This document shows, piece after piece, positions 44,428 through 64,000 of a stretch of DNA of 64,000 bases. How positions within the stretch are numbered: position 1 is the stretch's first letter; each line of letters begins with the position of its first letter. The position numbers and the translations under genes are program-made. The notes below the pieces were generated by a model, which was given only the letters and a program-made list of their open reading frames with translations, made no database searches and was not told the DNA's origin. The DNA comes from Dawidia soli (GTDB lineage: Bacteria; Bacteroidota; Bacteroidia; Cytophagales; Cyclobacteriaceae), in the NCBI RefSeq assembly GCF_018598185.1, contig NZ_JAHESC010000005.1, positions 124,001-188,000 on the forward strand, written 5' to 3'.

Positions 44428-44858
44428 GGGGTGGCATTAGTCTTTTTGCGAGGATTTGCGAGGAGTGTAAAGGGCCTCGCCGTTGCGGAACGCCGGTTGC
44501 GACGAGGCATGATCTTCCGGCCGCCGAAAAGGAGGGCATCAGGGAAGGGTTTCCAGCAATTTAGCACGAGAAAGGCCCTTTTTGCAAATGTTACACCCGG
44601 CGATTTTACGCCTATGTTCATGTATTTTTTTGCTTCCCGTTGCCCAGGACCTGGGAACCTATATCCGGACAGGCACGGCGGTATAGTATATATATTGAGC
44701 AACCTCCCGTGGTATGAGGTATATATTCCCATGCATGCCGGTATACACCGGGCATTTAGAATAAATCGTATTACGTCAGGATAATTTCTGGAAAAACGTG
44801 CGTGCGCGATTTCTCTACTTTCAATGTATCGTAACAGACCTAATTAAACCAAGATTAC
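44428..44858. other. divergent intergenic region, kinase to susC
   Basis: 431 bases with no credible gene; open frames here are short, basic or proline-rich and resemble nothing. Seen are a perfect tandem pair of TTTGCGAGGA (44445-44464) just upstream of the kinase start, and the shared 15-mer with a -7-like box toward susC (44759-44823). The middle, around 44680-44750, is rich in alternating TATA. Confidence 0.5.
44759..44823 (+). promoter_or_regulatory. susC promoter with 15-bp motif shared with the hydroxyproline operon
   Basis: GAATAAATCGTATTA at 44759-44773 is followed, 57 bp from its first base, by TACTTTCA (44816-44823), a seven-of-eight match to TAnnTTTG read as TACTTTC plus A. The same 15-mer and the same 57-bp offset occur before the DapA-family gene (49597-49661). 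The susC ATG is 36 bases downstream. The pairing argues for a shared activator. Confidence 0.6.
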
Positions 44859-47858
44859 ATGAGAAAGTATTTTACCAAACGCTTGATGGCGGTGTTGGCG
44901 CTTTGTGCGTCGGTGTTGCTGTATCAGCAGGCCGTGGCGCAGGTGGCGGTTTCCGGAAAAGTCGTTTCGGAAGACAACGAGCCGCTGCCGGGGGTGAGCG
45001 TGATGTTGAAGGGAACATCGCAAGGGACGACGACGGATGCCGGCGGACAGTTTACCTTGTCCGTGCCGGGGCCCGAGTCGGTATTGATCCTGAGTTTTGT
45101 CGGCTATCTCAGTGAAGAAGTCGTCGTGGGCACGCAGACCTCCGTCGAGGTGCGGCTCATGCCCGACCTGCAATCGCTGCAGGAGGTTGTCGTGATCGGG
45201 TACGGCACGCAAAAGAAGGAGAATGTTACCACTGCTATTGCCAGTGTAAAAGAAAAGGATTTTACCACGGGGGCTATGCGCGATGCTTCCGAGCTGATCA
45301 AAGGCAAGGTGGCGGGTCTCGTGATCGACAATGGCTCCGGCGATCCGGGCGCGGGGCCCAATATCTCGTTGCGCGGGATCGCGACGATCAGCGGGTCGAC
45401 CACGCCGCTGATCCTGATCAACGGCATCCCGGGTGATTTTAATACGGTGGCGCCGGCCGATATCGTGTCGATCGAAGTATTAAAAGATGCTTCCGCGGCG
45501 GCCATCTATGGTACACGGGGCGCCAATGGCGTAATCCTGATCACTACCCGTGGTGGCGAACGCGACCACGCCCCCTCGGTAGCCTACAACCACTACTCGG
45601 CGGTTTCCAATATTTACCGCAAACCCGAGTTCCTCGATGCGGGCGAATACCTCGAGCACGCCAAGACCTTCGACTTCGTCAGCAACTATGTGGAGGAGGC
45701 CGAAGCCAACGGCGGTGTGGGCGCCACCGACTGGCTGGACCTGATCACCCGCACCGCCTATACGCAGAACCACAACCTGTCGGTACAGGGCGGCGGTGCG
45801 TCGTCCACCTATTCGCTGGCCGTAAACTATATTTCGCAGGAAGGCATCTTTCTCAAGTCGGACAACGACGAGTTTCGTGTGTCGCTGGACCTGAACCAGT
45901 ACCTGCTGGAAGACAAGGTCAAGATCAACGTCAACTTGCTGCGCGGGGTGCAGAAGCGCGGGGCGCTGGGCGACGGCAGCTCGTTCAACCCGCTCATTTA
46001 CCGCAATGCCCTGATCAGGAATCCGCTGTTGAACGTGAAGGACGACGAAGGCAACTGGATCGATCCGGTCAAGTTCCAATATTACAACCCGCTGACCATG
46101 ATCGAAGAGACGAACGGTGAGCTCAACAATTCGTGGACACGTCTGACGTCCAACCTCACCGTGGAACCGCTGGCGGGCTGGAAGACCAACCTCATGGTGG
46201 CCCAGGAAATGAAGGACGGCTTTGCCGGCTATGCCGAAACCAAAAAGCACTATTCCACCACGCGCAACGGCCGCAACGGCTTTGCCTCGCGCAGCGACAC
46301 TCACAGCAAAACCAACTACCTGGAGCTGACCTCGCAGTATCAGCGGCTGATGGGCGACCACCATGTCACCGTATTGGGCGGCTACAGCTATCAGTACAAC
46401 CTGAACGAAGGGGGTTGGGCCAACAACTACGACTTCCCGACCGACAAATATTCGTATAACAACCTGGGCGCCGGCAATGCCATGCGCGACGGGCTGGCGC
46501 GGATGTCGAGCTACAAGGACGACAACACGCTGATCGGCTTCTTCGGCCGGGCGGCGTATACATTCCGCGACAAGTTCAACGTGCTGGCCAGTGTGCGGCG
46601 CGAAGGCTCGTCAAAGTTCGGCACGAACTATAAATGGGGTACATTCCCGTCGGCATCGGCCAGCTGGCTGATCAACCGCGAGCCGTTCCTGGCGAATGTG
46701 TCGGGTCTTACCCTGCTCAAGCTACGGGCGGGCTACGGCGTGACCGGTGTAATCCCCGCGGATTCGTATCGGTCCAAGACGGCGCTGGACTACTCGGGCA
46801 GCTTCTTCTATAACAACGGCAAGTGGGTACCGCCGCTGCAGAACAGCTGGAACCCCAATCCCAACCTGCGTTGGGAGAAATCGCAGGAAGTGAACATCGG
46901 CGTGGACTTCGAGCTGTTCAACCGTCGCCTGACCGGTAGCATAGACGGCTATTTCAAGAAAACCAAAGACCTGTTGTTCGAGTACCGTGTGCCCACGCCG
47001 CCCAACCTGGCCGACCGCACGCTGGCCAACGTGGGCGAGATGGACAACAAAGGTGTCGAGGTCCTGCTGCGCGGCACGCCAGTGCGTACGAGCAATTTCG
47101 AGTGGAGCTCGACGGTGACGATGTCACACAACCGCAACGAGCTGCTGAGCCTGTCCAACGACCTGTATAAGATCGAAGGTGACTATATCAACACCGGCGA
47201 CGCCGGCGACCCCATTTCCATGAGCACGCACCGCGTGGAGGTAGGACAACCTCTTGGTAACTTCTGGGGCCTGAAGTCGGTGGACATCAGCGAAGACGGC
47301 CTGTGGGTGATCGAGCTGCCCAACGGCGAGCGCCGCGTGATGGACGACAACGTACTGTCGCAGGATCCCAACCGCCAGATCCTGGGCAACGGCATTCCCA
47401 AATACCGGGTGGGTTGGACCAACACTTTCCGCTACAAGAATTTTGACCTGAGCGTGGTGATGAACGGCGCCTTCGGTTTCCAGATCCTGAACTTCCAGCG
47501 CATGTTCTATGAAAATCCCAACATCAACTACAACGTGCTGGAGTCGGCCTTCGATAATGTATACGGCAAGCGGCTGCTGGGCTATACGCGCCAGGCATAC
47601 GTGAGCTATTACATCGAAGACGGCGATTACCTGAAGGTAGACAACGCTACGCTGGGGTATAACGTCAATGTATCGAACCTCAAGTTTATCCGGGGCGTGC
47701 GGCTGTATGTCTCCGGCTCGAACCTGGCGACCATTACCGGGTATAAAGGGGTGGACCCGGAGATCCGGCGCGACGACCTGTTGTTCCAGGGCAACGACAA
47801 CCGGGATAAGTTCCCGTCCATCCGGACCTATACCGTGGGGGTGAATGTAAACTTCTAA
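44859..47858 (+). CDS. SusC/RagA-family TonB-dependent transporter of the arabinoside/hydroxyproline locus
   Basis: A 999-residue outer-membrane importer. It has a signal peptide (about 1-27, LLYQQAVAQ), CarboxypepD_reg-like domain (about 30-110, GKVVSEDNEPLPGVSV), TonB-box-like LQEVVVIGYGTQ (about 107-118), plug (about 120-230, AAIYGTRGANGVILITTRGG) and a 22-strand barrel ending RTYTVGVNVNF. Its SusD partner follows after 20 bases. The pair opens a same-strand run of hydroxyproline catabolism and arabinofuranosidase genes, so it probably imports Hyp-containing glycopeptides, Hyp peptides or L-arabinooligosaccharides; that is inference from context. It is set off from the kinase gene by a divergent promoter. 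Confidence 0.96.
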   Translation: MRKYFTKRLMAVLALCASVLLYQQAVAQVAVSGKVVSEDNEPLPGVSVMLKGTSQGTTTDAGGQFTLSVPGPESVLILSFVGYLSEEVVVGTQTSVEVRLMPDLQSLQEVVVIGYGTQKKENVTTAIASVKEKDFTTGAMRDASELIKGKVAGLVIDNGSGDPGAGPNISLRGIATISGSTTPLILINGIPGDFNTVAPADIVSIEVLKDASAAAIYGTRGANGVILITTRGGERDHAPSVAYNHYSAVSNIYRKPEFLDAGEYLEHAKTFDFVSNYVEEAEANGGVGATDWLDLITRTAYTQNHNLSVQGGGASSTYSLAVNYISQEGIFLKSDNDEFRVSLDLNQYLLEDKVKINVNLLRGVQKRGALGDGSSFNPLIYRNALIRNPLLNVKDDEGNWIDPVKFQYYNPLTMIEETNGELNNSWTRLTSNLTVEPLAGWKTNLMVAQEMKDGFAGYAETKKHYSTTRNGRNGFASRSDTHSKTNYLELTSQYQRLMGDHHVTVLGGYSYQYNLNEGGWANNYDFPTDKYSYNNLGAGNAMRDGLARMSSYKDDNTLIGFFGRAAYTFRDKFNVLASVRREGSSKFGTNYKWGTFPSASASWLINREPFLANVSGLTLLKLRAGYGVTGVIPADSYRSKTALDYSGSFFYNNGKWVPPLQNSWNPNPNLRWEKSQEVNIGVDFELFNRRLTGSIDGYFKKTKDLLFEYRVPTPPNLADRTLANVGEMDNKGVEVLLRGTPVRTSNFEWSSTVTMSHNRNELLSLSNDLYKIEGDYINTGDAGDPISMSTHRVEVGQPLGNFWGLKSVDISEDGLWVIELPNGERRVMDDNVLSQDPNRQILGNGIPKYRVGWTNTFRYKNFDLSVVMNGAFGFQILNFQRMFYENPNINYNVLESAFDNVYGKRLLGYTRQAYVSYYIEDGDYLKVDNATLGYNVNVSNLKFIRGVRLYVSGSNLATITGYKGVDPEIRRDDLLFQGNDNRDKFPSIRTYTVGVNVNF

Positions 47859-47878: not shown

Positions 47879-49492
47879 ATGAACATGCTAACCATAAAAC
47901 GATTTTTAACAGGCGTGGCCTTTACGACGGCGATGTTTTCCTGTACTGATCTGAACGAGAACCTGTACGACATCATCACGGCGGAAGAGACCGAGCTGAC
48001 GGCAGACGACCTGACCACGATCATCGCGCCGGCCTTTACCCGATTCCAGACGGTATACTGGGGATGGAACGGCCTCTTTGACGTATACGAAGAATCATCC
48101 GACCTGATCGTGACGCCGTTCCGCGTCGGCAACGGGTGGGGCGACCTGTACCTGGATCTGCACAAGCACGCGTGGGGTCCCTTTATCGAGCACGCCAACA
48201 ACCTGTGGGTAAACGTTTACAACGGCATTACCTATACGAACAAGGCCATGCTCACCATCGAGGGCCTTGCCGACGTGGAAGGCAAAGACACAGCGCTCGC
48301 AGAGCTGCGGGCGTTGCGTGCGATCTACTATTACATTTTGTTCGACAACTTCCGTGGTGTGCCGCTGGTGACGCGGTTCGATTTACCGCAGGGCTACCTG
48401 CCGGAACACAACACGGGCAAGGAAGTGTACGACTTTGTTGAAAGCGAGCTGACGGAGGTCATGCCGCTGCTGAGTGAAGTGACCGACGGCACAACCTATG
48501 GCCGGGTAACGAAGTGGGCCGCCAAGATGACGCTGGCCAAATTGTATTTGAACTCGGAGGTATACTTCGGCACGCCCCGCTGGGACGATGCCCAAGCGCA
48601 GGTGCAGGATATTATTGAAAGCGGCGAGTTTGCCCTGCAGGCAAATTATGCAGACAACTTTAAGGTAGCGAACGATGCAGCGTCTAACCTGGAGCAGATC
48701 TTCTCGATTCCCTTCGACGATATCAATGCGCCGGGATCGTATTATCCGTACAAGACGCTGCATGCGTTGAGCCAGTCTACGTACAATATGCGGGAGTCGC
48801 CGTGGGGCGGAAGCTGTGGGATTCCGCAGTTTATCGATACCTATGACGCAGACGACAGCCGGTTGGCCGAATGCTGGCTGGGCGGTCCGCAGTTTACGAG
48901 TGGTGGCGCGCCGATCATGGCGGGGGAAGATGTGCAGTTCGAGTATATCAACTACATGACGAGTGCGGATGCGGCCGAGTTTAATGAAGGCTTCCGGTTT
49001 ATCAAGTACCAGATCGCGGGGTTGGATGGTAAGGGCAACGATGTGCCGTTCTACCGGTATGCGGATGCGCTGATGATCAAGGCGGAGTGTTTGCTGCGCA
49101 CGGGCGCCGCCGATGAGGCCGCGGCGATCGTGACGGAGGTAAGGAAGCGGAACTTCCGCAGTGAACCGGAGAAGGCAGAAGTGACGGGGGCGGAGCTACT
49201 CGAAGGAAGCCGGTATCACTACGGGCCGTATGAAGCCGGGGTGATCAAAAAAGAGGAAGGCGGCGATGATATACTCTACGGTCGCTTCCTTGACGAGCTG
49301 GCGTGGGAGTTTGTGGGTGAGCACCATCGTAAACAGGACCTGATCCGCTTCCAGACGAATAAAGGTAAGTCGGTGTATATCTCGAAGTCGTGGTTGACGC
49401 ACGCGCCGAGCGAGAAGTTCCGGGAGGTATACCCCATACCGCAGCCCCAGCGGGAGACGAACTCGAATCTGGGACAGAACGACGGATATTGA
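47879..49492 (+). CDS. SusD/RagB-family lipoprotein of the arabinoside/hydroxyproline locus
   Basis: A 537-residue surface lipoprotein with lipobox TAMFSC (Cys about 22). It has SusD landmarks NNLWVNVYNGITYTNKAM, ELRALRAIYYYILFDNFRGVPLV (TPR-like), RVTKWAAKMTLAKLYLNSE, the C-terminal FYRYADALMIKAECLLRTG and LDELAWEFVGEHHRKQDLIRF, and the closing SNLGQNDGY that is common in this family. It follows susC and is closed by an intrinsic terminator, so the pair is transcribed separately from the catabolic genes behind it. The ligand is unknown; glycopeptide or arabinoside binding is inferred. Confidence 0.95.
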   Translation: MNMLTIKRFLTGVAFTTAMFSCTDLNENLYDIITAEETELTADDLTTIIAPAFTRFQTVYWGWNGLFDVYEESSDLIVTPFRVGNGWGDLYLDLHKHAWGPFIEHANNLWVNVYNGITYTNKAMLTIEGLADVEGKDTALAELRALRAIYYYILFDNFRGVPLVTRFDLPQGYLPEHNTGKEVYDFVESELTEVMPLLSEVTDGTTYGRVTKWAAKMTLAKLYLNSEVYFGTPRWDDAQAQVQDIIESGEFALQANYADNFKVANDAASNLEQIFSIPFDDINAPGSYYPYKTLHALSQSTYNMRESPWGGSCGIPQFIDTYDADDSRLAECWLGGPQFTSGGAPIMAGEDVQFEYINYMTSADAAEFNEGFRFIKYQIAGLDGKGNDVPFYRYADALMIKAECLLRTGAADEAAAIVTEVRKRNFRSEPEKAEVTGAELLEGSRYHYGPYEAGVIKKEEGGDDILYGRFLDELAWEFVGEHHRKQDLIRFQTNKGKSVYISKSWLTHAPSEKFREVYPIPQPQRETNSNLGQNDGY

Positions 49493-49503
49493 TCAAAATA
49501 GTA

Positions 49504-49529
49504 AAAAAGGCGCCGCAGGGCGCCTTTTT
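49504..49529 (+). terminator. intrinsic terminator of the susCD pair
   Basis: AAAAAGGCGCC (49504-49514) pairs perfectly with GGCGCCTTTTT (49519-49529) around a GCAG loop, 11 bases after the susD stop. The symmetric A and T runs allow termination on either strand. Confidence 0.9.
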
Positions 49530-49596: not shown

Positions 49597-49661
49597 GAAT
49601 AAATCGTATTAGTAGTAGGTAATGGCGTACAATCCAGGGGGGTGTTCGTGCCCTATTTTTG
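49597..49661 (+). promoter_or_regulatory. hydroxyproline-operon promoter with the shared 15-bp motif
   Basis: GAATAAATCGTATTA at 49597-49611 and an exact -7 box TATTTTTG at 49654-49661, 57 bp from motif start to box start, the same offset as at susC. The operon's first ATG is at 49689, 27 bases past the box. The rest of the spacer is unlike that of susC, so conservation is limited to the two elements. Confidence 0.65.
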
Positions 49662-49688: not shown

Positions 49689-50624
49689 ATGATCACATGG
49701 AAAGGCGTGTTTCCTGCGGTAACGACCAAGTTTACGGCAGATGACAAACTGGATTTCAAGGCGTTCGAGAAGAACGTAGAGGCACAATTAAAGGCCGGTG
49801 TACACGGCATCATCATAGGCGGAACGCTGGGAGAGTCCAGTGTGCTGTCGCCGGCAGAAAAGCAGGAGCTGCTGAAGTTTACGGTGCAGACGGTGGCAGG
49901 CCGCGTGCCGGTGGTGCTTAATATTGCCGAAGGCGCTACGCGCGATGCCGTGCAGATCGCCGAAAGCGCGCAGAAGAACGGCCTGAACGGCCTGATGCTG
50001 CTGCCGCCGATGCGGTATAAATCCGACCACCGCGAGACGGTCACCTACTTCAAGACCATCGCGAAGGCCACCGATCTGCAGATCATGATCTACAACAACC
50101 CCGTCGACTACAAAGTAGAGGTGACGCCGGATATGTTTGAAGAGCTGACCGAAAGCAAAAACATCGACGCGGTAAAAGAGTCGACGCGCGACGTGGTGAA
50201 TGTCACGCGCATGGTGAATCGCTTTGGCGATCGCTTCAGCATCATGAGCGGTGTGGATACGCTGGCGATGGAAAGCCTGGTGGTCGGGGCCAACGGCTGG
50301 GTGGCCGGTTTGGTGTGTGCGTTTCCGGAGGAAACGGTGGCCATCTATAACCTGGTCAGGGAAGGCCGCATCCAGGAAGCCGTGGAGATCAACCGCTGGT
50401 TTATGCCGCTGCTGGAGCTGGACACATTTGCCAAACTGGTGCAGTATATCAAATTGGCGGAAGCCGAAGTGGGCCTGGGTACCGAGACGGTGCGCGCGCC
50501 GCGGCTGGTGCTGGCAGGCGAGGAGCGTACACAGGTATTGCACGTTATCCGCGAAGCGTTGAAGAAACGGCCGGTGCTGCCGCGCAGCAATGGGCAATCC
50601 GTGAGACCTACCGCGACAGTATAA
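49689..50624 (+). CDS. DapA-family lyase, probable 1-pyrroline-4-hydroxy-2-carboxylate deaminase
   Basis: A 311-residue class I Schiff-base lyase of the DHDPS/NAL family. It has IGGTLGESSVLSPAEKQEL, the Tyr motif IMIYNNPVDYK near 138-148 and the Schiff-base lysine K163 in DAVKES. In hydroxyproline degradation the DapA-like enzyme deaminates and dehydrates 1-pyrroline-4-hydroxy-2-carboxylate to 2-oxoglutarate semialdehyde. Its place before the semialdehyde dehydrogenase, epimerase and FAD dehydrogenase genes supports that over lysine or sialate duty. ATG 49689 is used because the longer frame crosses the -7 box. Its TAA overlaps the next ATG by one base. Confidence 0.88.
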   Translation: MITWKGVFPAVTTKFTADDKLDFKAFEKNVEAQLKAGVHGIIIGGTLGESSVLSPAEKQELLKFTVQTVAGRVPVVLNIAEGATRDAVQIAESAQKNGLNGLMLLPPMRYKSDHRETVTYFKTIAKATDLQIMIYNNPVDYKVEVTPDMFEELTESKNIDAVKESTRDVVNVTRMVNRFGDRFSIMSGVDTLAMESLVVGANGWVAGLVCAFPEETVAIYNLVREGRIQEAVEINRWFMPLLELDTFAKLVQYIKLAEAEVGLGTETVRAPRLVLAGEERTQVLHVIREALKKRPVLPRSNGQSVRPTATV

Positions 50625-52096
50625 TGGAACAGCAACAGATCGATACTATTTTACAACAGGCCGCCGCGGCATTTGATCGTTACCGCTGGGTAACCGGCGC
50701 GGGCAAAGCGGCCTTCCTGTTTAAAATTGCCGATGATATCGCCGCGATCACAGACGAGCTGGTAGCCCTCGCGCAAGCGGAGACGAACTTGCCGGAGGCA
50801 CGCCTGCGGGGTGAGATCGGACGCACAACGAATCAGCTACGCGAGTTTTCCGCGCTGGTCGACCAGGGCACCTGGGTGCAGGCCACCATTGATACGGCCT
50901 TGCCGGAGCGCAAGCCTTTGCCGAAGCCCGACCTGCGCAAGATGCAGGTACCCATCGGGCCGGTGGTGGTGTTTGGTGCCAGCAACTTCCCCTTCGCTTT
51001 CTCTACGGCGGGAGGTGACACGGCGTCGGCGTTGGCCGCGGGTTGCTCGGTCATTGTGAAGAGCCATCCCGCCCATCCGCGCACGTCGGCACGTGTAGCG
51101 GCGGTGATCGGCGCGGCGGTGAATGCCACCGGCATGCCGCAGCATGTGTTTCAACACATCGAGGACTCCAGCATCGAAGTGGGGCAGCAACTTGTCCGGC
51201 ATCCGCTGACGCAGGCTGTGGCCTTTACGGGCTCGCAGCAAGGCGGCATGGCGTTGTATCACCTGGCGGCACAGCGGCCGAACCCGATACCCGTGTTTGC
51301 CGAGATGGGCAGCGTCAACCCGGTCATTGTGCTGCCCGAGATCATGAAGACGCATGCTGCGTTGCCCGCTACCCTGGCGGCCTCCATCGTACAGGGCGTG
51401 GGCCAGTTCTGTACCAACCCCGGCTTGCTGTTTGCCCTGCGTGGCGACGGGCTGGGTAATTTCCTCACGGCGTTGGGCAATGCTATTCACGGCAGCGCAC
51501 CGGCGAAGATGTTACACCCCGGCATTGCCAGGAACTATAGTATAAAAAAGGCGCATGCCACGGCGCAAGCCGGTGTATCGGTCGTGGCCACGGCGATGGA
51601 TACCGACGACGATACGCAGGGCGTGCCTGCGGTGGCGCGGGTACATGCACGTGATTTTATCCGCAATCCTGCGCTGCACGAAGAGGTCTTTGGCCCGTTC
51701 TCCCTCGTGGTCACCTGCGACAACGCCGACGAGCTGGGCGACGCGCTGGCCGCCTTGCCGGGGCAGCTTACGACTTCGCTGTTCGGCACGGCAGACGAGC
51801 TGAAACACTATACGAACCTGGTGCTGGCGTTGCAAAAGCAGTGCGGACGTATGATCTTTAACGGCGTGCCCACGGGGGTGGAAGTATGCAAGGCGATGCA
51901 GCATGGCGGACCGTTTCCGGCGACGACCGATGCGCGGTTCACGTCTGTCGGTACGGATGCACTATACCGGTTTGTGCGGCCGTTCTGTTACCAGGATGCG
52001 CCGGAGGCGTTGTTGCCTGCCGAGCTGCGGAACGCGAACCCCTTGCAGATCCTTCGCTGTGTGAACAACCGGTGGACCACGGACGACGTGGCATGA
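50624..52096 (+). CDS. 2-oxoglutarate semialdehyde (2,5-dioxovalerate) dehydrogenase
   Basis: A 490-residue NAD(P)-dependent aldehyde dehydrogenase. It has the cofactor region FGASNFPFAFSTAGGDTASALAAGCSVIVKSHPAHP, FTGSQQGG, the general base in VFAEMGSVNP and catalytic C263 in GQFCTNPG. The KSHPAHP and SVNPV features are those of the clade of 2-oxoglutarate-semialdehyde dehydrogenases that serve hydroxyproline, arabinose and glucarate breakdown. It makes 2-oxoglutarate for the TCA cycle. It overlaps the DapA-family gene by one base, and the epimerase follows after 28 bases. The same enzyme could also end an L-arabinose oxidative route, of note beside arabinofuranosidases. Confidence 0.92.
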   Translation: MEQQQIDTILQQAAAAFDRYRWVTGAGKAAFLFKIADDIAAITDELVALAQAETNLPEARLRGEIGRTTNQLREFSALVDQGTWVQATIDTALPERKPLPKPDLRKMQVPIGPVVVFGASNFPFAFSTAGGDTASALAAGCSVIVKSHPAHPRTSARVAAVIGAAVNATGMPQHVFQHIEDSSIEVGQQLVRHPLTQAVAFTGSQQGGMALYHLAAQRPNPIPVFAEMGSVNPVIVLPEIMKTHAALPATLAASIVQGVGQFCTNPGLLFALRGDGLGNFLTALGNAIHGSAPAKMLHPGIARNYSIKKAHATAQAGVSVVATAMDTDDDTQGVPAVARVHARDFIRNPALHEEVFGPFSLVVTCDNADELGDALAALPGQLTTSLFGTADELKHYTNLVLALQKQCGRMIFNGVPTGVEVCKAMQHGGPFPATTDARFTSVGTDALYRFVRPFCYQDAPEALLPAELRNANPLQILRCVNNRWTTDDVA

Positions 52097-52124: not shown

Positions 52125-53129
52125 ATGAAGAAGACATTTTTTTGTATCGACGCCCATACCTGTGGCAACCCGGTGCGGCTGGTAGCCGGCGGGGGACCTG
52201 TCCTGGAAGGAAAAAACATGAGCGAGAAGCGGCAACACTTCCTGCGTGAATATGACTGGATCCGCCAGGGGCTGATGTTCGAGCCGCGCGGGCACGACAT
52301 GATGAGCGGCAGTATACTCTATCCGCCCTGCGACCCGCAGAACGATGTGGCGGTGTTGTTCATTGAGACCAGCGGCTGTCTGCCGATGTGTGGCCACGGT
52401 ACCATCGGCACGGTGACCATCGCGATTGAAGAGGGCCTGGTGACGCCCCGGCAACCGGGCGTACTGAATGTAGAAGTACCCGCGGGCCTGATCCGCATTG
52501 AATATACCCAGCGCGAAAGCGATAACAAGGTAACGTCGGTCAGGATCCGGAATATCAAATCGTTCCTGGCCGCCGAGAACCTGACTGCCGAGTGCCCGGA
52601 CCTGGGCGAGTTGACGCTCGATGTATCGTACGGCGGGAACTTCTACGCCATCGTCGACGTGCAGCAGAACTTTCCGGGGCTGGAGCATTTCCGCGCCGAG
52701 CAACTGATCGGCTGGAGCCGCGCGCTGCGCAAGAACATCAACGCCAAGTATACCTTTGTACATCCCGAGAATCCCACGATCAACGGCTGCAGCCACATTC
52801 TGTGGGCGGGGCAGGTGATCGACCCGGCTTCTACGGCGCGCAACGCGGTGTTTTATGGTGACAAGGCCATCGACCGCTCACCCTGCGGTACCGGTACCTC
52901 GGCGCGCCTGGCGCAGTGGTACGCCAAGGGCAAGCTCAAACCGGGTGAGCCTTTTATACACGAAAGCATTATCGGCTCGAAGTTCATCGGCCGGGTGGAG
53001 GAAGCGACCACGTTGGGTGACAAGCCTGCCATTGTGCCCAGCATCGAAGGATGGGCCGTGGTGACGGGGTATAACACCATCATCATGGACGACAACGATC
53101 CCTATAAACACGGCTTCCAGGTAATCTAA
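52125..53129 (+). CDS. 4-hydroxyproline 2-epimerase (proline racemase family)
   Basis: A 334-residue cofactor-free epimerase. Both catalytic cysteines are present: C89 in PMCGHGTIG and C254 in RSPCGTGTSA. The Cys/Cys pair marks 2-epimerases that convert trans-4-hydroxy-L-proline to cis-4-hydroxy-D-proline, whereas the dehydratase branch has Thr at the second site. FFCIDAHTCGNPVRLVAGGGP opens the domain, as in the family. It lies between the semialdehyde dehydrogenase and the D-amino-acid dehydrogenase genes on one strand, an order widely seen in bacterial hydroxyproline operons. Length is normal. Confidence 0.95.
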   Translation: MKKTFFCIDAHTCGNPVRLVAGGGPVLEGKNMSEKRQHFLREYDWIRQGLMFEPRGHDMMSGSILYPPCDPQNDVAVLFIETSGCLPMCGHGTIGTVTIAIEEGLVTPRQPGVLNVEVPAGLIRIEYTQRESDNKVTSVRIRNIKSFLAAENLTAECPDLGELTLDVSYGGNFYAIVDVQQNFPGLEHFRAEQLIGWSRALRKNINAKYTFVHPENPTINGCSHILWAGQVIDPASTARNAVFYGDKAIDRSPCGTGTSARLAQWYAKGKLKPGEPFIHESIIGSKFIGRVEEATTLGDKPAIVPSIEGWAVVTGYNTIIMDDNDPYKHGFQVI

Positions 53130-56725: not shown

Positions 56726-56733
56726 TAAGTTTG
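56726..56733 (+). promoter_or_regulatory. -7 box TAAGTTTG for the arabinofuranosidase genes
   Basis: Exact TAnnTTTG match 22 bases upstream of the GH127-like ATG 56755, in the 104-base gap after the peptidase. It suggests the two DUF1680 genes have their own promoter besides readthrough. No copy of the 15-bp motif was found here. Confidence 0.5.
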
Positions 56734-56754: not shown

Positions 56755-59166
56755 ATGCGTTATTATACCATGAAAGGCAGCAGTATACTGGCCATGCTAC
56801 TCTGGCTCGGCACGCGGACCGCCACCGCGCAAACCGCCCCGCTGCAAGCGGGCGATTATCCCATTCAACCGGTGCTGTTCAATGCAGTAAAACTGCAGGA
56901 CCACTTCTGGGCGCCGCGCATCAAGACCAACCATGAGGTGACCATTCCCTTTACGCTCGGAAAATGTGAGTCGACGGGACGGATCAAGAACTTTGAGATC
57001 GCTGCGGGGCTCAAGACCGGTGTATTCGGTACGGAGTTTCCCTTCGACGATACGGATGTTTACAAGATCATCGAAGGTGCCAGCTATTCGCTGCAAATCT
57101 TTAAAGATCCCGCGCTGGAAGCCAAAGTCGATACGCTCGTGGCGCTTATCGGCAAAGCCCAGGAGCCTGACGGCTATATTTATACCAACCGTACCATCAT
57201 GGGCGCGAAGGGCCACGAGTGGGCCGGTACCAAACGGTGGGAAAAAGAGTCGGACCTCAGCCACGAGCTGTATAACATCGGTCACCTCATCGAAGCGGGC
57301 GTGGCGCACTATCACGCCACCGGTAAACGTGCGTTGCTCGACATCTCCATCAAGGCGGCAGACCGCGTATGTGCCGACTTCGGCCCCGACAAGCTGCATA
57401 CCTATTCGGGACACCAGATCATCGAGCTGGCCATGGCCAAGCTGTACAAGGTCACGGGCAACAAGAAGTACCTGGACATGGGCAAGTTCCTGCTGGATGT
57501 GCGGGAAGGAGGTAATGATTACAACCAGGCACACAAGCGCGTGGTGGACCAGCACGAGGCCGTGGGCCACGCGGTACGCGCGGCCTATATGTACGCCGGC
57601 ATGGCCGACATCGCGGCGCTGACGTCGGATGCGCGGTATATCAAAGCGATCGACGATATCTGGGAGGATGCCGTCTACAAGAAGATGTATGTTACCGGCG
57701 GCATCGGCTCGACGGGGAATGGCGAGGCCTTTGGCGCGGCGTACGAGCTGCCCAACATGTCGGCTTACAACGAGACGTGTGCGTCCATTGCCAATGTATA
57801 CTGGAACTACCGCTTGTTCCTGCTGCACGGCGAGGCCAAATACTACGATGTCCTGGAACGCACGCTGTACAATGCTTTTTTGTCGGGCGTGTCGTTGACC
57901 GGCGACCGGTTCTTTTATCCGAATCCGTTGGAGTCGCATGGGCAGCACCAGCGCAGTCCGTGGTTTAGCTGTGCCTGTTGTCCCAGCAACGTGACGCGCT
58001 TTGTGCCGTCGGTGGGCGGCTATTTCTATGCCCAGAAGGATCGGTCGCTGTATGTAAATCTGTATGGCGAAAGCTCCGCTGACTTTACCGTGGGCAAGAC
58101 GTCCGTAACGCTGAGGCAGAAAACGAACTACCCGTGGGAGGGAGCGATACAGATCGACGTGGCACCGGCCCAGGCTGCGACATTCGATATCCGGGTGCGG
58201 ATCCCCGGCTGGGCGCAAGACACGCCCATGGCGGGCGATCTGTATAGCTTTCGCGACAAGGCTACCGCAAAGCCCCAGGTGGCGGTAAACGGCAAAGCCG
58301 TGCCGTTGATGACCGATAAGGGATACGTCGTCTTACAACGCCAGTGGAAGAAAGGCGATGTCATTCAGGTGACCCTGCCGATGCCCGTGCGGCGGATCGT
58401 CGGCAATACACACATTGCTGCCGACCAGGACAAGTATGCCTATCAGCGCGGTCCATTAGTATATTGTGCCGAGTGGCCCGACAACGCCGACAAGAAAGTA
58501 TTAAACCTTGTCGTGGCCGACGATGCTCCGGTAAAGGCCGTTTATACGCCCGATCTGTTTAACGGCGTATACCGGCTGCAGACCAAGGGTCAGGCCGCCG
58601 CGCGCGCCTCCGAGACGGAGATCAGGACGCAGCCCGTAGACGTCACGCTCATACCGTACTTTGCCTGGGCCCACCGCGGGGCGGGGGAGATGACGGTATG
58701 GATTCCGCGCAAGGCCGGCGCGGCGCAACCTACACCGGCGCCGACGATCGCGTCGAAGAGTAAACTTTCGGCCTCGCACAAAGCGCGTACGCTGATGGCG
58801 CTGAACGACCAGATGGTGCCGAGCAGCTCCAACGATCAGCGGATCATCTTCTACCACTGGTGGCCCCTGAAAGATACCGTGCAGTGGGTGCAATACGACT
58901 TTGAAAAACCGGCGCGCGTTGCGGGTTCGCAGGTGTACTGGTTTGACGATAGCCCGTTCGGAGACTGTCGCCTGCCGCTGGGGTGGCGACTGTTATACCG
59001 GCAGGGCGAGCAGTGGCTGCCGGTGAAAAACACGGCTCCTTACGGCGTGGACAAAGACCGCTATTCGGGCGTGTCGTTCGAGCCGGTCACGACCGATGCC
59101 TTGCGCATGGAGGTCACGTTGCCCAAGGAACATTCCGCCGGGATCCTGGAATGGTCCGTGCAGTAA
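56755..59166 (+). CDS. exported GH127-type beta-L-arabinofuranosidase
   Basis: An 803-residue DUF1680 enzyme close to HypBA1, which releases beta-L-arabinofuranose from beta-Ara-Hyp and oligosaccharides. Signal peptide about 1-25. In an (alpha/alpha)6 barrel the zinc-site residues are E340 and C342 in YNETCAS and C408-C409 in SCACCPSN, with C408 the expected nucleophile, and E324 in GNGEAFG as acid/base. These match the E338/C340/C417/C418 and E322 set known in Bifidobacterium longum. The C-terminal 130 residues form an added discoidin-like beta domain (WWPLKDTVQWVQYDFEKP) not in HypBA1. Start 56755 or 56770 is possible. The paralogue starts 34 bases on, so both are co-transcribed. Confidence 0.93.
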   Translation: MRYYTMKGSSILAMLLWLGTRTATAQTAPLQAGDYPIQPVLFNAVKLQDHFWAPRIKTNHEVTIPFTLGKCESTGRIKNFEIAAGLKTGVFGTEFPFDDTDVYKIIEGASYSLQIFKDPALEAKVDTLVALIGKAQEPDGYIYTNRTIMGAKGHEWAGTKRWEKESDLSHELYNIGHLIEAGVAHYHATGKRALLDISIKAADRVCADFGPDKLHTYSGHQIIELAMAKLYKVTGNKKYLDMGKFLLDVREGGNDYNQAHKRVVDQHEAVGHAVRAAYMYAGMADIAALTSDARYIKAIDDIWEDAVYKKMYVTGGIGSTGNGEAFGAAYELPNMSAYNETCASIANVYWNYRLFLLHGEAKYYDVLERTLYNAFLSGVSLTGDRFFYPNPLESHGQHQRSPWFSCACCPSNVTRFVPSVGGYFYAQKDRSLYVNLYGESSADFTVGKTSVTLRQKTNYPWEGAIQIDVAPAQAATFDIRVRIPGWAQDTPMAGDLYSFRDKATAKPQVAVNGKAVPLMTDKGYVVLQRQWKKGDVIQVTLPMPVRRIVGNTHIAADQDKYAYQRGPLVYCAEWPDNADKKVLNLVVADDAPVKAVYTPDLFNGVYRLQTKGQAAARASETEIRTQPVDVTLIPYFAWAHRGAGEMTVWIPRKAGAAQPTPAPTIASKSKLSASHKARTLMALNDQMVPSSSNDQRIIFYHWWPLKDTVQWVQYDFEKPARVAGSQVYWFDDSPFGDCRLPLGWRLLYRQGEQWLPVKNTAPYGVDKDRYSGVSFEPVTTDALRMEVTLPKEHSAGILEWSVQ

Positions 59167-59200: not shown

Positions 59201-61585
59201 ATGTCCTTTTGTTTGTTTACCATAGCCCGCCGCGGTGTGGCATTATCCCTGGGCGTATTGTCGGCCTGGTGCGCCGGTGCGCAGTCCTATATTCCTGAAG
59301 ACGCTAACCCGCGGGTAAAGGTCGCCGACAAGATGCCGGTGGCCGTCTACCCCTTTCCGTTGCAAGCGGTCAGCCTGTTGCCGAGTGTGTTTACCGAGGC
59401 GCGGGATGCCGACCGGCGTTACCTGCTCAAGCTTTCACCGGACCGTTTGTTGTCACAGTTCCGGTCGCATTCGGGGCTGACGCCGAAAGCGGATAAATAT
59501 GGCGGCTGGGAAAGCGATGGCCTGGCCGGCCATACCCTGGGGCATTATCTGTCGGCCTGTGCGTTGGACTATGCCGCCTCGGGCAATCCGGAAATGCTCA
59601 AGCGTGTCAACTACATCGTAGACGAGCTGCATGCATGCCAGGTGGCCCGTAAGACGGGCTATGTGGGCGCTATACCCCGCGAGGACTCCGTGTTCCTGGA
59701 GGTATCACAAGGTGATATCCGCTCGCGCGGCTTTGACCTGAACGGCAGCTGGTCGCCGTGGTATACCATTCACAAAGTGATGGCCGGGTTGCTCGACGCC
59801 TACCTGTATTGCCACAACGACCGGGCGCTGCTGGTGGAGAAGGGCATGGCCGACTGGACCGGCACGGTGCTAAAAGACCTGAACGACGCCCAGATCCAAA
59901 AGATGCTGCTGTGCGAGTACGGCGGCATGAACGAAGTGTTGGTGAACACCTATGCCTTTACGGGCGACAAGAAGTACCTCGACCTGTCGTATAAATTTCA
60001 CGACCGGGTGATACTCGACTCGCTCGCGCACGAGGTGGATATTCTCCCGGGCCGGCACTCCAATACGCAGATCCCCAAAGTAATCGGCACGGTGCGCCGG
60101 TACCAGCTGACCGGTGACCGCAGCGACCTGATCACCGGCGACTTCTTTTGGAAGACCGTGGTGCAGCATCATTCCTATGCACCGGGCGGCAACAGCAACT
60201 ACGAATACCTGGGTGAGCGCGACAAGCTGAACGACAAGCTGACGGACAACACCATGGAGACCTGCAATACCTACAATATGCTGAAGCTGACGCGGCATCT
60301 GTTTGCCCTGCAACCGGCTGCCGGTCTGATGGATTTCTACGAGAAGGCGTTGTATAACCACATTCTGGCGTCGCAGCATCACAAGACCGGTATGATGTGT
60401 TACTTCGTGCCGCTGCGCATGGGTACCATCAAAGAGTTCAGCGACGAGTTTAATACGTTTACATGCTGTGTGGGGTCGGGGATCGAGAACCATGTGAAGT
60501 ACGGCGAGAGCATTTATTTCCGCGGCAAGGACGGCAGTGTCTATGTCAATCTGTTCATCCCCTCGGTGTTGGATTGGAAGGAGAAGGACTTTCGCGTAAC
60601 GCTGAACAGCCGGATCCCGCAGGCAAAGACTATTCGCCTGACGGTGGGCACGCGCAAGGCACAGGAACGCACCCTGCGCATCCGGAAACCGCAATGGGCG
60701 CCTGCCGCGGTGGCGGTGCGGGTCAATGGCAAAGCAGTGCAGGCGCCGGTGGATGCCGCGGGGTATCTCACGCTGCGTCGTACCTGGAAGGACAAGGACG
60801 TTGTGGAGGTAGACCTGGAATCGTCGCTCTACACCGTGGCCATGCCCGACAACGCCGCGCGGCAGGCCTTCTTCTATGGGCCGGTGTTGCTGGCCGGCAA
60901 CCTGGGCAAGCAGGAGCCCGATCCGTCCGCCGGGATACCGGTGCTGGTCGCGGCCGACGCGGCGGCGGACAAGATGCTGGAGAAGCTGCCGGGCGATTCG
61001 CTCACGTTCCGCACCCGGGGTATCGGTATACCCACCGATGTGACGCTCCAGCCGTTCTACAATCTCGACGACGAGTATTATTCGGTCTATTGGGATGTCT
61101 TCACCCCCACAGCGTGGAAGGACGAGCAGCAGCGTTACGAAGCGCGCAAGCGGGAAGTTTATGCGCTGGAGAAGAGCACCGTCGACATCCTGCGGGTGGG
61201 CGAGATGCAGCCGGAGCGCGACCACAACTTTACGGGTGAAAAACTGGAGACGGGCGAGTCGCATACACGCAAGTTCCGCGTGGCGAACGACGGTGGGCAT
61301 TTCAGCTTTACGATGAAGGTGATCCCCGGGTTCTCGTACAACCTGGTGGGCACGTACTGGGGCATGGACAACCGCGGGCGTAACTTCGACATCCTGGTGG
61401 ACGGCGAGAAGATCGCCGGCGTCGACCTGAACAAGTTCAAGGAAAGTAAGTTCTATGATATCGCGTATCGGATTCCATCACACCTCGTGGCGGGCAAGAC
61501 GAGCGTGAAAATAACGTTTCAGGCGAAACCCAGGAACCAGGCCGGGCCTGTCTATGGGGTGCGGCTGGTCAAAGAATCACAATAG
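59201..61585 (+). CDS. exported GH146-type beta-L-arabinofuranosidase (DUF1680)
   Basis: A 794-residue exported enzyme of the DUF1680 clan, different from its neighbour. Signal peptide about 1-27. In the alpha-barrel are GGWESDGLAGHTLGHYLSA and the zinc-site residues E353 and C355 in METCNTYN, then C422-C423 in FTCCVGSG. The SCACC form of GH127 is replaced by a bare CC, as in the GH146 enzymes (BT0349-like). A beta sandwich and a C-terminal domain with MQPERDHNFTGEKLETGESHTRKFR (DUF4986/DUF6805-like) follow, ending YGVRLVKESQ. ATG 59201 is chosen; an upstream frame overlaps the GH127 gene. Family call from memory of motifs; linkage specificity is unproven. Confidence 0.88.
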   Translation: MSFCLFTIARRGVALSLGVLSAWCAGAQSYIPEDANPRVKVADKMPVAVYPFPLQAVSLLPSVFTEARDADRRYLLKLSPDRLLSQFRSHSGLTPKADKYGGWESDGLAGHTLGHYLSACALDYAASGNPEMLKRVNYIVDELHACQVARKTGYVGAIPREDSVFLEVSQGDIRSRGFDLNGSWSPWYTIHKVMAGLLDAYLYCHNDRALLVEKGMADWTGTVLKDLNDAQIQKMLLCEYGGMNEVLVNTYAFTGDKKYLDLSYKFHDRVILDSLAHEVDILPGRHSNTQIPKVIGTVRRYQLTGDRSDLITGDFFWKTVVQHHSYAPGGNSNYEYLGERDKLNDKLTDNTMETCNTYNMLKLTRHLFALQPAAGLMDFYEKALYNHILASQHHKTGMMCYFVPLRMGTIKEFSDEFNTFTCCVGSGIENHVKYGESIYFRGKDGSVYVNLFIPSVLDWKEKDFRVTLNSRIPQAKTIRLTVGTRKAQERTLRIRKPQWAPAAVAVRVNGKAVQAPVDAAGYLTLRRTWKDKDVVEVDLESSLYTVAMPDNAARQAFFYGPVLLAGNLGKQEPDPSAGIPVLVAADAAADKMLEKLPGDSLTFRTRGIGIPTDVTLQPFYNLDDEYYSVYWDVFTPTAWKDEQQRYEARKREVYALEKSTVDILRVGEMQPERDHNFTGEKLETGESHTRKFRVANDGGHFSFTMKVIPGFSYNLVGTYWGMDNRGRNFDILVDGEKIAGVDLNKFKESKFYDIAYRIPSHLVAGKTSVKITFQAKPRNQAGPVYGVRLVKESQ

Positions 61586-61597: not shown

Positions 61598-62485
61598 TTA
61601 GCGCAGGACCATATCCATTTTATTCTCCTGGAGCTTCCGGAATTCCGTCGGGGTGATCGAACACACCGAACGGAATTTCCGGTTGAAGTTCGAGAGATTG
61701 TTAAATCCCACCTCCATCGAGATCTGCGAAATGCTCAGGTTGTTTTGCTGGAGCAGCTTGCGCGCATGGCCGATGCGGATCTCCGTCAGGAAATCCACGT
61801 ATGACTTGCGCGTACGTTTTTTGAAGTAGCGGCAGAACGAGTTTGTGGTCATGTGCGCCAGGTCGGCAACCTCGTCGAGCGAGATCTTGCGGTGGAACTC
61901 GTTCATCGTAAACCGGTAGATGTCGGCCAGCTTGCGGCCGTCCTGTTCATCGAAGTCGCTGTATACGCCGGACGATGCCAGGGGCTCCATATTTTTATTC
62001 GACGACAGGATGCTGAGGATCTTCAGCAGCACGATGATGCGGTCCATGCCGGTCTTCCGGAACATGTGTTTGATGAGCTGTGCCACGCGGCTCTTGACAG
62101 GCTCCTGGATGAACAGTCCGCGCGCGCTGCTTTTGGCGAGCTCGTTCAGGTGCGCCATCTCGGGCATGGAGAGAAATGTTTCGCCGAATGTTTTCCATTC
62201 GAAGAAGATCGACAGCGAATGCGCTTGCCCCTCCCGTTGGTTGTCATAATATTTCCGGTCGTTCCGGAATACATGCGGCAGGTTCGGACCGATCAAAAAT
62301 ATATCACCGGGTTTGAAGGCACCTATAAAATCGCCGACGATCACTTTGCCATCGCTTTCGAGGATCAACGTCAGCTGTATTTCCGGATGCTGGTGGAGGT
62401 TGTCGTAAAAGTGAACCTCATGGTCTTCCTGCAACCGAAAAGATTCCTGCGATGTCTTGGGAATTTTAAAGGGTAGAATTTTCAT
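61598..62485 (-). CDS. AraC-family regulator with cupin-like sensor domain
   Basis: A 295-residue AraC regulator. The N-terminal cupin-like region (about 15-110) has FYDNLHQHPEIQLTLILESDGKVIVGDF and FKPGDIFLIGPNLPHVF, typical of the AraC group that senses sugars. The C-terminal HTH pair (about 190-285) shows ISLDEVADLAHMTTNSFCRYFKKRTRKSYVDFLTEIRIGHARKLL and ISQISMEVGFNNLSNFNRKFR. It is convergent with the GH146 gene (12-base gap) and divergent from the GH51 gene, so it likely controls the arabinofuranosidase side of the locus, perhaps with L-arabinose as ligand. That is inference. Confidence 0.92.
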   Translation of the reverse strand: MKILPFKIPKTSQESFRLQEDHEVHFYDNLHQHPEIQLTLILESDGKVIVGDFIGAFKPGDIFLIGPNLPHVFRNDRKYYDNQREGQAHSLSIFFEWKTFGETFLSMPEMAHLNELAKSSARGLFIQEPVKSRVAQLIKHMFRKTGMDRIIVLLKILSILSSNKNMEPLASSGVYSDFDEQDGRKLADIYRFTMNEFHRKISLDEVADLAHMTTNSFCRYFKKRTRKSYVDFLTEIRIGHARKLLQQNNLSISQISMEVGFNNLSNFNRKFRSVCSITPTEFRKLQENKMDMVLR

Positions 62486-62642: not shown

Positions 62643-62718
62643 AGGTAAGATCGTATCGACAGCCGGCAATATCTATGAAACGCCTTTAGGGACGCCGGGC
62701 GTAATTTCAGGGGTATCT

Positions 62719-64000
62719 ATGAAGCGTTTTTGTTTAAGCATGTTGATGATCGCGTGTGTGCACGCAACGATGGCGCAGACCACGCAGATCTCGGTTTCGG
62801 GCGCCACGACGGGGGCGACGGTGTCGCCGGCATTGCACGGGATCTTTTTTGAAGAGATCAGTCATGGCGGCGAAGGCGGACTGTACGGTGAGCTGATCCA
62901 AAACCGTGGGTTTGAGGAAAGTAAAATACCCGAGGGCTGTACGCTCGACTCCGGGTTCATCCGGCCGCCCCGTACGCCGCACTATAGCGCGGGCCGTGTG
63001 GTAGACTGGGCGATGCCGTTTGAAGCGAAGAACGATTATCCCGCCTGGTCTCTTGCAACCGGTGGCGGTGCGGTGGCCCGCCTGGCGTTGGATCTTTCGC
63101 AACCGTTATACCCCGAGACGCCGCGATCGTTGAAAGTGGCTATAACGTCCGTACCGCATACCGGTAACGTTAGCGTGGTCAACGAAGGGTTCTGGGGAAT
63201 CTCCGTGCAGCAGGATGCGGCCTATACCCTGACCTTCTATAGCCGTGCGGAAAAGTATCACGGCAGTATTACCGCCCGACTGGTAGGGGCCAACGGCAAA
63301 ATGCTGGCAGAGCATGTTTTCGAACGCGCGCGGGGTGACGGGTGGAAGAAATATACCGCCACGTTGCGTGCCCGGGCGGGCGATGCACGGGCTACGTTTC
63401 AATTGTCGTTTTCCCGACCGGGCACGGTGTGGCTGGACTTTGTTTCGTTGTTCCCGGTGAAGACGTTCCGCGATCGTGCCAATGGCCTGCGGCCGGACCT
63501 GGCGCAATACCTGGCGGATCTGAAACCGGCGTTTGTACGCTGGCCCGGCGGATGTTTTGTCGAAGGCATCAGCCCCCAGAGCGCACCGAACTGGAAGAAG
63601 TCGCTGGGGCCGGTCGAACGGCGCCCGGGTACCTACAGTCCGTGGGGCTATTGGTCCAGTGACGGGCTGGGCTACCACGAGTTCCTGCAGTTCTGCGAAG
63701 ACGTTGGCGCCGACGCCATGTATGTATTTAACTGCGGCGTGTCGTGCGAGATGCGCAGCGGGGTATACGTGGAGGATGAGCACCTCGACACGCTCGTGAC
63801 CAGCACCCTCGACGCGATCGAATATGCCCTGGGGCCGCCGGACTCGCGTTGGGGCAGGGTACGCGCCCGGCAGGGCCATCCGGAGCCATTTCCGCTGCGG
63901 TATGTGGAGGTTGGCAACGAGCAGGCGGGCGAACGGTATGCCCGGCGCTTTAACATCTTTTACAAAGCCATCAAGGAAAAGTATCCGCAGCTGGAAGTGC
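62719..64000 (+). CDS. exported GH51 alpha-L-arabinofuranosidase, 3' end beyond window
   Basis: The frame from ATG 62719 is open to the right edge, 427 residues without a stop. The signal peptide (about 1-20, HATMAQ) precedes the GH51 N-terminal sandwich: LHGIFFEEISHGGEGGLYGE, then ELIQNRGFEE. A carbohydrate-binding-like domain (about 85-250, FWGISVQQDAAYTLTFYSRAEKY and DFVSLFP) is inserted, as in CBM4-containing GH51 enzymes. The barrel has KPAFVRWPGGCFVEGI and YVEVGNEQAGERY, where E401 in GNE is the acid/base; the nucleophile lies past the edge. It would remove alpha-L-arabinofuranose, the terminal unit of Hyp-linked tetra-arabinosides or arabinan side chains. Confidence 0.95.
   Translation, partial: MKRFCLSMLMIACVHATMAQTTQISVSGATTGATVSPALHGIFFEEISHGGEGGLYGELIQNRGFEESKIPEGCTLDSGFIRPPRTPHYSAGRVVDWAMPFEAKNDYPAWSLATGGGAVARLALDLSQPLYPETPRSLKVAITSVPHTGNVSVVNEGFWGISVQQDAAYTLTFYSRAEKYHGSITARLVGANGKMLAEHVFERARGDGWKKYTATLRARAGDARATFQLSFSRPGTVWLDFVSLFPVKTFRDRANGLRPDLAQYLADLKPAFVRWPGGCFVEGISPQSAPNWKKSLGPVERRPGTYSPWGYWSSDGLGYHEFLQFCEDVGADAMYVFNCGVSCEMRSGVYVEDEHLDTLVTSTLDAIEYALGPPDSRWGRVRARQGHPEPFPLRYVEVGNEQAGERYARRFNIFYKAIKEKYPQLEV

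Follow-up and report, generated by a model that had tools for sequence, protein, structure and literature searches.

A Dawidia soli locus combining hydroxyproline catabolism, beta-L-arabinofuranosidases and a SusC/SusD pair, probably for the use of plant hydroxyproline-rich glycopeptides

The window analysed here is a 64,000-nucleotide stretch of the Dawidia soli genome (contig NZ_JAHESC010000005.1, positions 124,001 to 188,000). It carries a locus in which a SusC/SusD pair, four genes assigned to trans-4-hydroxyproline (Hyp) catabolism and three arabinofuranosidase genes lie together. The SusC/SusD pair has adjacent glycoside hydrolases (GH), as in a polysaccharide utilization locus (PUL), and comparison with other genomes gives good support to the view that the locus couples a PUL to an amino-acid pathway. 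It probably serves the utilization of arabinosylated, Hyp-rich plant glycopeptides, most likely of the extensin type. This reading rests on the gene content, on conserved catalytic residues, on the recurrence of the gene combination and on a motif common to susC and dapA.

Families were called with Pfam and NCBIfam profiles, and the nearest solved structures were found by sequence searches of the PDB. From position 44859, the plus-strand gene order is susC, susD, the DapA-type gene, an aldehyde dehydrogenase (ALDH), the epimerase (EPI), a D-amino-acid dehydrogenase (DAO), an S9 peptidase, GH127, GH146, araC and GH51. All genes of the original prediction are present as open frames where it placed them, mostly on one strand, with only araC on the minus strand. 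Its span of 44759-64000 locates the locus correctly; position 44759 belongs to the upstream region of susC, and the susC open reading frame (ORF) begins at 44859. The features are as follows.

44760-44773, plus strand: first copy of the motif AATAAATCGTATTA, beginning 99 bp 5' of the susC ATG
44859-47858, plus strand: SusC/RagA TonB-dependent outer-membrane receptor (TIGR04056, 743 bits, cut-off 368)
47879-49492, plus strand: SusD-type lipoprotein, SusD_RagB (PF07980, PF14322)
49504-49529, flagged on the minus strand: near-palindromic, terminator-like hairpin with an 11-pair stem, between susD and dapA
49598-49611, plus strand: second copy of AATAAATCGTATTA, beginning 91 bp 5' of the dapA ATG
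49654-49661, plus strand: TATTTTTG, a Bacteroidetes-type -7 box before dapA, read from the sequence
49689-50624, plus strand: DapA-type deaminase, DHDPS family (PF00701, 208 bits; operon position)
50624-52096, plus strand: aldehyde dehydrogenase, likely a 2-oxoglutarate semialdehyde dehydrogenase (PF00171; nearest PDB entries 1eyy and 3v4c)
52125-53129, plus strand: 4-hydroxyproline 2-epimerase, Pro_racemase (PRK13971, 596 bits, cut-off 376; Cys/Cys motifs MCGHGT and PCGTGT)
53146-54393, plus strand: putative FAD D-amino-acid (D-Hyp) dehydrogenase, DAO (PF01266, 254 bits; operon position)
54404-56650, plus strand: S9 peptidase of the DPP-IV/prolyl oligopeptidase type (PF00930, DPPIV_N; PF00326), predicted to be exported from a signal-like N-terminus judged by eye
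56726-56733, plus strand: TAAGTTTG, a -7-like box before GH127, read from the sequence and identical in the nearest sister genome (G156)
56755-59166, plus strand: GH127 beta-L-arabinofuranosidase with a signal-like N-terminus (PF07944, PF20736, PF20737)
59201-61585, plus strand: GH146 beta-L-arabinofuranosidase with a signal-like N-terminus (PF07944, 397 bits; nearest PDB entry 5opj, 503 bits)
61598-62485, minus strand: AraC-family regulator (PF12833, PF00165; Cupin_2 under its cut-off)
62719-64000, continuing to about 65265, plus strand: GH51 alpha-L-arabinofuranosidase, ASD1_dom (PF22848; PF22848 and PF06964 on the full gene)

The four Hyp genes are almost contiguous, with gaps of -1 to 28 bases. 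The epimerase scores well above the PRK13971 cut-off, and the other three families (PF01266, PF00701 and PF00171) are adjacent and co-directional. The DapA, ALDH and DAO labels are at family level only, because none of these proteins reaches the equivalog cut-off of the NCBIfam models shown; their roles in the Hyp pathway are predicted from family and operon. The nearest named kin of the epimerase are mostly Cyclobacteriaceae, Flammeovirgaceae and Cytophagales metagenome genomes.

In the PDB search, the window GH127 is most similar to 6ex6 (744 bits), followed by 4qjy (459), 5mqo (347) and HypBA1 (3wkw, 325). We take 6ex6 to be BT3674, 5mqo to be BT1003 and 5opj to be BT0349. When the window GH127 is aligned with 3wkw, all nine HypBA1 active-site positions match (counted by hand). 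The residues kept are the substrate residues R273, H194, H142 and Y145, together with E322, E338, C340, C417 and C418. We take E322 to be the acid/base and E338, C340, C417 and C418 to be the Glu-Cys-Cys-Cys zinc site with the Cys nucleophile. The H142 position is His in the window protein and Phe in 5mqo, and the window GH127 is therefore set apart from 5mqo. Assignment as an aceric acid hydrolase (NF049879) was rejected, at 482 bits against a curated 950. The window GH146 scores 503 bits with 5opj versus 61 bits with the best GH127 structure, and its E-x-C and CC motifs are kept. R273, H194, H142 and Y145 are named as HypBA1 residues in a published account, in which the GH146 enzymes XeHypBA1 and Bll4HypBA1 are active on Araf-beta-Hyp and BT0349 acts on arabinan-derived sugars (PMC10850190).

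Epimerase neighbourhoods were compared in 60 family loci and 80 named loci, with ORFs matched to the window proteins. The 60 family loci were drawn from 146 matching genomes, nearest first and then by our own choice; 18 of the 80 named loci are shorter than 15 kb. GH127/GH146 homologues are present in 18 of the 80 named loci and 6 of the 60 family loci. These counts are quoted rather than 33 of 149, because nine of the 149 tallied loci were fetched for having a glycosidase.

Two sets were searched across whole genomes with PF07944. Set A consists of 48 of the 80 named loci. The loci outside it are the 18 short ones, L100, L179 and a further twelve (L102, L106, L126, L128, L134, L136, L150, L151, L156, L157, L165 and L175); among these 32, L164 and L175 have GH127/GH146. 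The set A genomes contain 136 PF07944 genes, and 18 of these fall in 16 of the 48 loci (approximately 20 kb each), versus 0.46 expected. Set B comes from a class sample of 395 genomes: 40 of these have the epimerase, and the 33 that do not belong to the family make up the set. It contains 62 PF07944 genes, and in nine of the 33 genomes at least one such gene lies no more than 10 kb from the epimerase, versus 0.26 expected. The nine belong to families f42 (six), f37 (two) and f55 (one). One genome is shared between sets A and B (L159, the same as G454) and one locus between set A and the family set (L107, the same as L055).

Relatedness among genomes inflates raw P values, and weight is therefore put on the number of separate arrangements. 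In a FastTree phylogeny of 124 epimerases, eight of them fetched for a glycosidase, the glycosidase label changes most simply 14 times, and at least nine changes are forced by well-supported branches. The pairing-positive named genera include Mucilaginibacter, Pedobacter, Chitinophaga, Sinomicrobium, Galbibacter and Rufibacter. In the NCBI taxonomy, Mucilaginibacter, Chitinophaga, Sinomicrobium and Rufibacter represent four orders, so that the pairing occurs in Cytophagales, Sphingobacteriales, Chitinophagales and Flavobacteriales. The original prediction had proposed a search for the epimerase with GH127-type genes in other Bacteroidota and had named confinement to this strain as a reason to abandon the idea. 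The pairing extends over four orders, far above expectation, and that objection is therefore removed.

The arrangements themselves differ between lineages (gene starts in these loci were called mechanically). In four genomes, the glycosidase lies within or directly behind the Hyp operon. The order is EPI-DAO-DUF885-GH146 in Chitinophaga oryziterrae (L131), where the called genes are 8, 13 and 4 bases apart, EPI-GH127-DAO in L122, EPI-GH146-DAO in L189 and EPI-APC-GH146-DAO in L117. Sinomicrobium (L142) and Galbibacter (L167) share the order SusCD-AraC-Hyp genes-S9-GH146-like-DUF885, with one extra ORF after SusD in Galbibacter. Seven Mucilaginibacter-type loci (L123, L135, L143, L149, L159, L164 and L177) contain GH127-GH27-Hyp operon. 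In G376, the order is AraR-AraC-Hyp-S9-GH146-DUF885-GH127-SusD-SusC. A Chitinophaga metagenome-assembled genome (L115, NZ_CABHOU010000101.1) has AraC-DapA-ALDH-APC-GH51-EPI-DAO-DUF885-M61-AraR-AraB-AraD-AraA. Its AraR, AraB, AraD and AraA genes (16241-20992) stand right behind the Hyp operon, and sugar and amino-acid catabolism thus occupy one 20-kb stretch. Homologues of AraR, AraB and AraD are at the Hyp locus of L118 as well. Among closer relatives, G156 has the gene order of the window minus S9, and G182, G163 and G136 have as extras an amino-acid permease, an aminopeptidase-P-like M24 protein, a POT peptide transporter and an AraR regulator. In G213, the Hyp and glycosidase sets are on separate contigs.

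The window SusC was compared with 61 whole genomes, and the best 13 first-look candidates of each were scored. Five of these genomes (G317, G334, G045, G302 and G333) had been added for SusC/GH genes at Hyp loci or for neighbouring interest. Of 22 matches of 840 bits or higher, 17 lie within approximately 12.5 kb of a Hyp epimerase (13 of 16 without the five added genomes). Of the five remaining matches, two (G302 and G678) have a PF07944 gene no more than 5 kb away. None of the nine matches of 610-685 bits is near an epimerase. This SusC subfamily goes with the Hyp genes.

The 14-base motif AATAAATCGTATTA has two exact copies in the genome, one 5' of susC and one 5' of dapA, and five one-mismatch copies elsewhere. 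At -87 to -92 of dapA it is exact in G156, G182 and G163 and has one mismatch in G136, which together represent two genera. The copy 5' of susC is also kept in one relative, G156, at the same position. Before S9 and APC, the best match has at least three mismatches. The Bacteroidetes -7 box has the consensus TAnnTTTG. Separate susCD and Hyp transcripts are suggested, because susD is followed by the hairpin and a promoter-like box of its own precedes dapA. A single operon from susC onward was judged unlikely, given this hairpin and dapA's separate motif and box, and the genes ahead of araC are probably transcribed in two or three units.

In each of the 11 family genomes searched, the best homologue of the window AraC adjoins GH127, and in 10 of them GH146 is there too. 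Each of seven same-genus genomes, D. soli included, contains one homologue at the cut used, always beside GH127 and, except in G127, beside GH146 too. In G376 and G406, the best homologues adjoin dapA. In four loci where the Hyp operon stands apart (L044, L046, L047 and L048), no AraC is present within the 20-kb Hyp locus. These neighbourhoods suggest one AraC regulator for the Hyp and glycosidase halves.

Several observations weigh against a dedicated locus for Hyp-rich glycopeptides. GH127/GH146 are absent from 62 of the 80 named loci (18 of the 80 being shorter than 15 kb) and from 54 of the 60 family loci. Related genomes inflate the counts, and six of the nine class-sample positives belong to one family, f42. 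In G197, G074 and G177, a GH127-GH146-DUF885-AraC block lies approximately 22-38 kb from the epimerase; S9 and GH51 lie between the two in G074 and G177. The motif AATAAATCGTATTA is not found before dapA in G015 and G127, both of which have glycosidases. Before GH127 and GH51, its best match has at least three mismatches, a level that shuffled sequence also gives, and GH127 seemingly has its own promoter at TAAGTTTG. The nearest solved homologues are the arabinogalactan-linked 6ex6 for GH127 and the arabinan-product-active 5opj for GH146, with HypBA1 in fourth place. The S9 peptidase is absent from the nearest sister, G156. No endo-peptidase was identified, and no GH121 arabinobiosidase turned up, although no GH121 profile search was made. 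The support is comparative; activity on Hyp-arabinosides, co-expression and growth on extensin are predictions.

The substrate of GH127 is proposed by analogy, because its nearest solved relative is 6ex6 and not HypBA1. Arabinogalactan or arabinan and Hyp-arabinosides are both possible substrates of GH127 and GH146. It is conceivable, though doubtful, that the locus acts on arabinogalactan proteins (AGPs) rather than extensins, taking the beta-Araf caps off AGP glycans and consuming the Hyp-rich core. Beta-Araf is present on AGPs, and BT3674, together with galactanases, acts on larch arabinogalactan and aids its breakdown (PMC10850190). AGPs are likewise Hyp-rich (PMC8012813). Against this, no galactanase-type family is present among the 13 locus proteins scanned with Pfam, and the GH27 alpha-galactosidase of relatives suits extensin better. 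Extensins carry alpha-galactose on Ser (PMC8012813; PMC5371791), and GH27 beside GH127 in the Mucilaginibacter-type loci therefore fits extensin.

An unlikely reading is that two separate systems stand side by side: a locus for Hyp and peptides (SusCD, the Hyp genes and S9), acting on collagen or any Hyp peptide, and a set for arabinan or arabinogalactan side chains (GH127, GH146 and GH51). The hairpin between susD and dapA, the separate promoter-like box before GH127, the pectin and arabinogalactan enzymes among the nearest solved homologues, the distance between the sets in three sister species and the absence of GH127/GH146 from most Hyp loci are all consistent with it. In a Colwellia cluster, collagenase stands with a TonB receptor and Hyp genes, and the description available names no arabinofuranosidase (PMC7883544). 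Against two separate systems speak the enrichment in several lineages, the embedded glycosidases, the AraC homologues on both sides, a SusC subfamily that tracks the Hyp genes and, in eight genomes, the lack of any GH43 gene nearer than 10 kb to the epimerase. The main rival substrate is collagen, the animal Hyp source; beta-L-arabinofuranosidases would have no evident use on it. A search for M9 collagenase found none in 16 genomes, and the control genomes were likewise silent.

It is very improbable that the nearness is a side effect of carbohydrate-rich genome regions holding both sets: the genomes are rich in such loci (18-180 first-look SusC candidates each), but GH78 is not enriched (none of the 107 genes in the 48 set A genomes turned up in a locus, 0.36 expected; queried with eight GH78 domains, so that distant members could be missed), nor is GH43 (81 genes in eight genomes chosen for the pairing, none within 10 kb, 0.27 expected), each control being weak when taken alone. 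Three GH43 genes lie 11-16 kb from the epimerase in G513 and G406.

We return to the utilization of arabinosylated, Hyp-rich glycopeptides as the favoured reading. We infer the substrate, the order of steps, the protein locations and the regulation of the glycosidases. Glycopeptides freed by other enzymes would bind SusD and enter the periplasm through SusC. The outer alpha-Araf would fall to GH51, the beta-1,2-Araf units to GH127 and the inner beta-Araf adjoining Hyp to GH146. Ara3-Hyp and Ara4-Hyp have beta bonds, and Ara4 has one alpha bond as well (PMC7263609), so that the three enzymes could jointly strip both. The freed Pro/Hyp-rich peptide would be cut by the S9 peptidase and by the M1 peptidase just past the window. 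Imported trans-4-Hyp would be epimerised, oxidised, deaminated and oxidised again to 2-oxoglutarate, and arabinose would pass to araBDA elsewhere in the genome. Both halves would be under one AraC protein.

The original prediction had joined sugar removal, peptide cleavage and Hyp oxidation in one utilization locus. Recurrence, embedded glycosidases, the SusC subfamily and AraC speak for the joining; its substrate is as much a proposal now as it was then, with 6ex6 as the nearest GH127 structure. Its wording that the locus degrades such glycoproteins completely, sugar and amino acid, was too strong, given the position of araBDA and the lack of S9 in G156. Reading past position 64000, as had been suggested, completes GH51 (full gene at 220-2766 of L002) near 65265 and then reaches the M1-family peptidase, followed by an 864-aa protein; the arabinose-use genes araB-araD-araA are instead approximately 49 kb upstream of the locus and outside it. 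In the 7.48-Mb genome, which is 98.5% complete, the PF07944 genes detected are the GH127 and GH146 of the locus and no others.

Known systems resemble parts of the locus. The beta-L-arabinofuranosidase genes for Hyp-linked arabinosides are likewise clustered in Bifidobacterium longum (HypAA-HypBA2-HypBA1) and Xanthomonas (XeHypAA/BA2/BA1) (PMC7263609, PMC6085000). Next to xehypAA, Xanthomonas euvesicatoria has a predicted prolyl oligopeptidase gene that is a pseudogene (PMC6085000); the window has an S9 peptidase. The passages describing these two clusters name no Hyp catabolism, which the window locus has (PMC7263609, PMC6085000). They place a GH121 biosidase (in Bifidobacterium also an ABC transporter) where the window has SusCD, and GH43 where it has GH51. 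The Colwellia collagen cluster, of approximately 21 kb, likewise has a secreted peptidase, a TonB-dependent receptor and Hyp catabolic genes. It differs, as far as its description goes, in its M9 collagenase, its animal substrate, the lack of a named arabinofuranosidase and its place in the Gammaproteobacteria (PMC7883544). Bacteroidetes PULs share with the window locus a SusC/SusD pair, exported glycoside hydrolases and a local regulator. Unlike them, the window locus has a complete amino-acid catabolic set and peptidases, and the proteins scanned include no endo-acting polysaccharidase. Ordinary bacterial trans-4-Hyp operons share all four Hyp genes with the locus (epimerase, D-Hyp dehydrogenase, deaminase and semialdehyde dehydrogenase) and mostly lack GH127/GH146.

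The original prediction knew of no described locus with the full set, and none was found among the matches listed from the open-access literature: no paper there unites Hyp catabolism with GH127/GH146 or a PUL (subscription papers and preprints fall mostly outside this scope). The Colwellia cluster is the nearest printed analogue. None of six terms sought occurs in a genome-neighbourhood study of proline racemases (PMC4113996). Use of extensin has been inferred from GH127 in a paper on Latescibacteria (PMC4454575).

Further genes stand at or near these loci. The 864-aa protein beyond the M1 peptidase (L002 4836-7430, approximately 67335-69929 in window numbering) has a type IX secretion tail, matches F5/8 weakly and contains HEGIH as a motif; it may be an unassigned metallopeptidase. 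In G156, no S9 gene stands between DAO and GH127 (L040 11770-11911) and the 3' flank resembles that of the window; the difference is a recent loss or gain. GH27-type alpha-galactosidase homologues occur in 13 of the 149 loci (11 distinct genomes), mostly Mucilaginibacter-type. Members with a putative Ig domain stand beside GH127 and the Hyp operon (L123 4815-7052, L174 17109-19331 and similar loci), and this enzyme could act on the Ser-alpha-Gal of extensins. Among unlabelled genes, DUF885 most often neighbours the Hyp operon (45 of 149 loci, for example L131 12266-13954 and L187 17390-19120). It directly adjoins GH146 in several loci and its PDB matches are weak (lipoproteins and one uncharacterised protein); a peptidase would be a guess. 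DUF5695 (approximately 920 aa; for example L138 130-2895, L172 16779-19559, L191 and L192) is found in nine of 149 loci and in L211, several of them with GH146. A PDB sequence search with one member gave no match, and the predicted structure of another has a mean pLDDT of 38.7, too low to be useful.

An ornithine-cyclodeaminase gene is present in the Colwellia collagen cluster, as it is in 13 of the 140 Hyp loci compared (L060, L063, L065, L072, L075, L089 and seven others), six of which have a second proline racemase-like gene. These 13 do not overlap with the 24 GH127/GH146 loci; the chance probability is 0.077 and the loci are related, so that mutual exclusion is suggestive only. They are maybe a collagen-type version. 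One contig labelled Williamsia (L128, JADCRZ010000073.1) contains a Bacteroidota-type Hyp operon with a 76% identical epimerase and is probably misbinned. Upstream in the window, a DNA ligase D (22030-24741) and a long catalase (25527-27713) are ordinary genes unrelated to the locus.

We lean towards the view that Bacteroidota have repeatedly assembled dedicated loci that use plant Hyp-rich glycoproteins whole, a plant-side counterpart of the collagen cluster. Such loci would have glycosidases that act on Hyp-arabinosides and Ser-alpha-Gal, a specific SusCD subfamily and genes to import and cut peptides, to oxidise Hyp and, in some cases, to catabolise arabinose, under a shared AraC. Extensins and related glycoproteins are a structural and defence-related part of the wall, and little is known of their consumption by soil and plant-associated bacteria. 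If this view is true, the Hyp epimerase, GH127/GH146 and the SusC subfamily would form a gene signature for the use of these polymers as protein plus sugar. The loci would be a source of Hyp-arabinoside enzymes, with DUF885 and DUF5695 as candidate families, and the PUL idea would be widened from glycans to whole glycoproteins.

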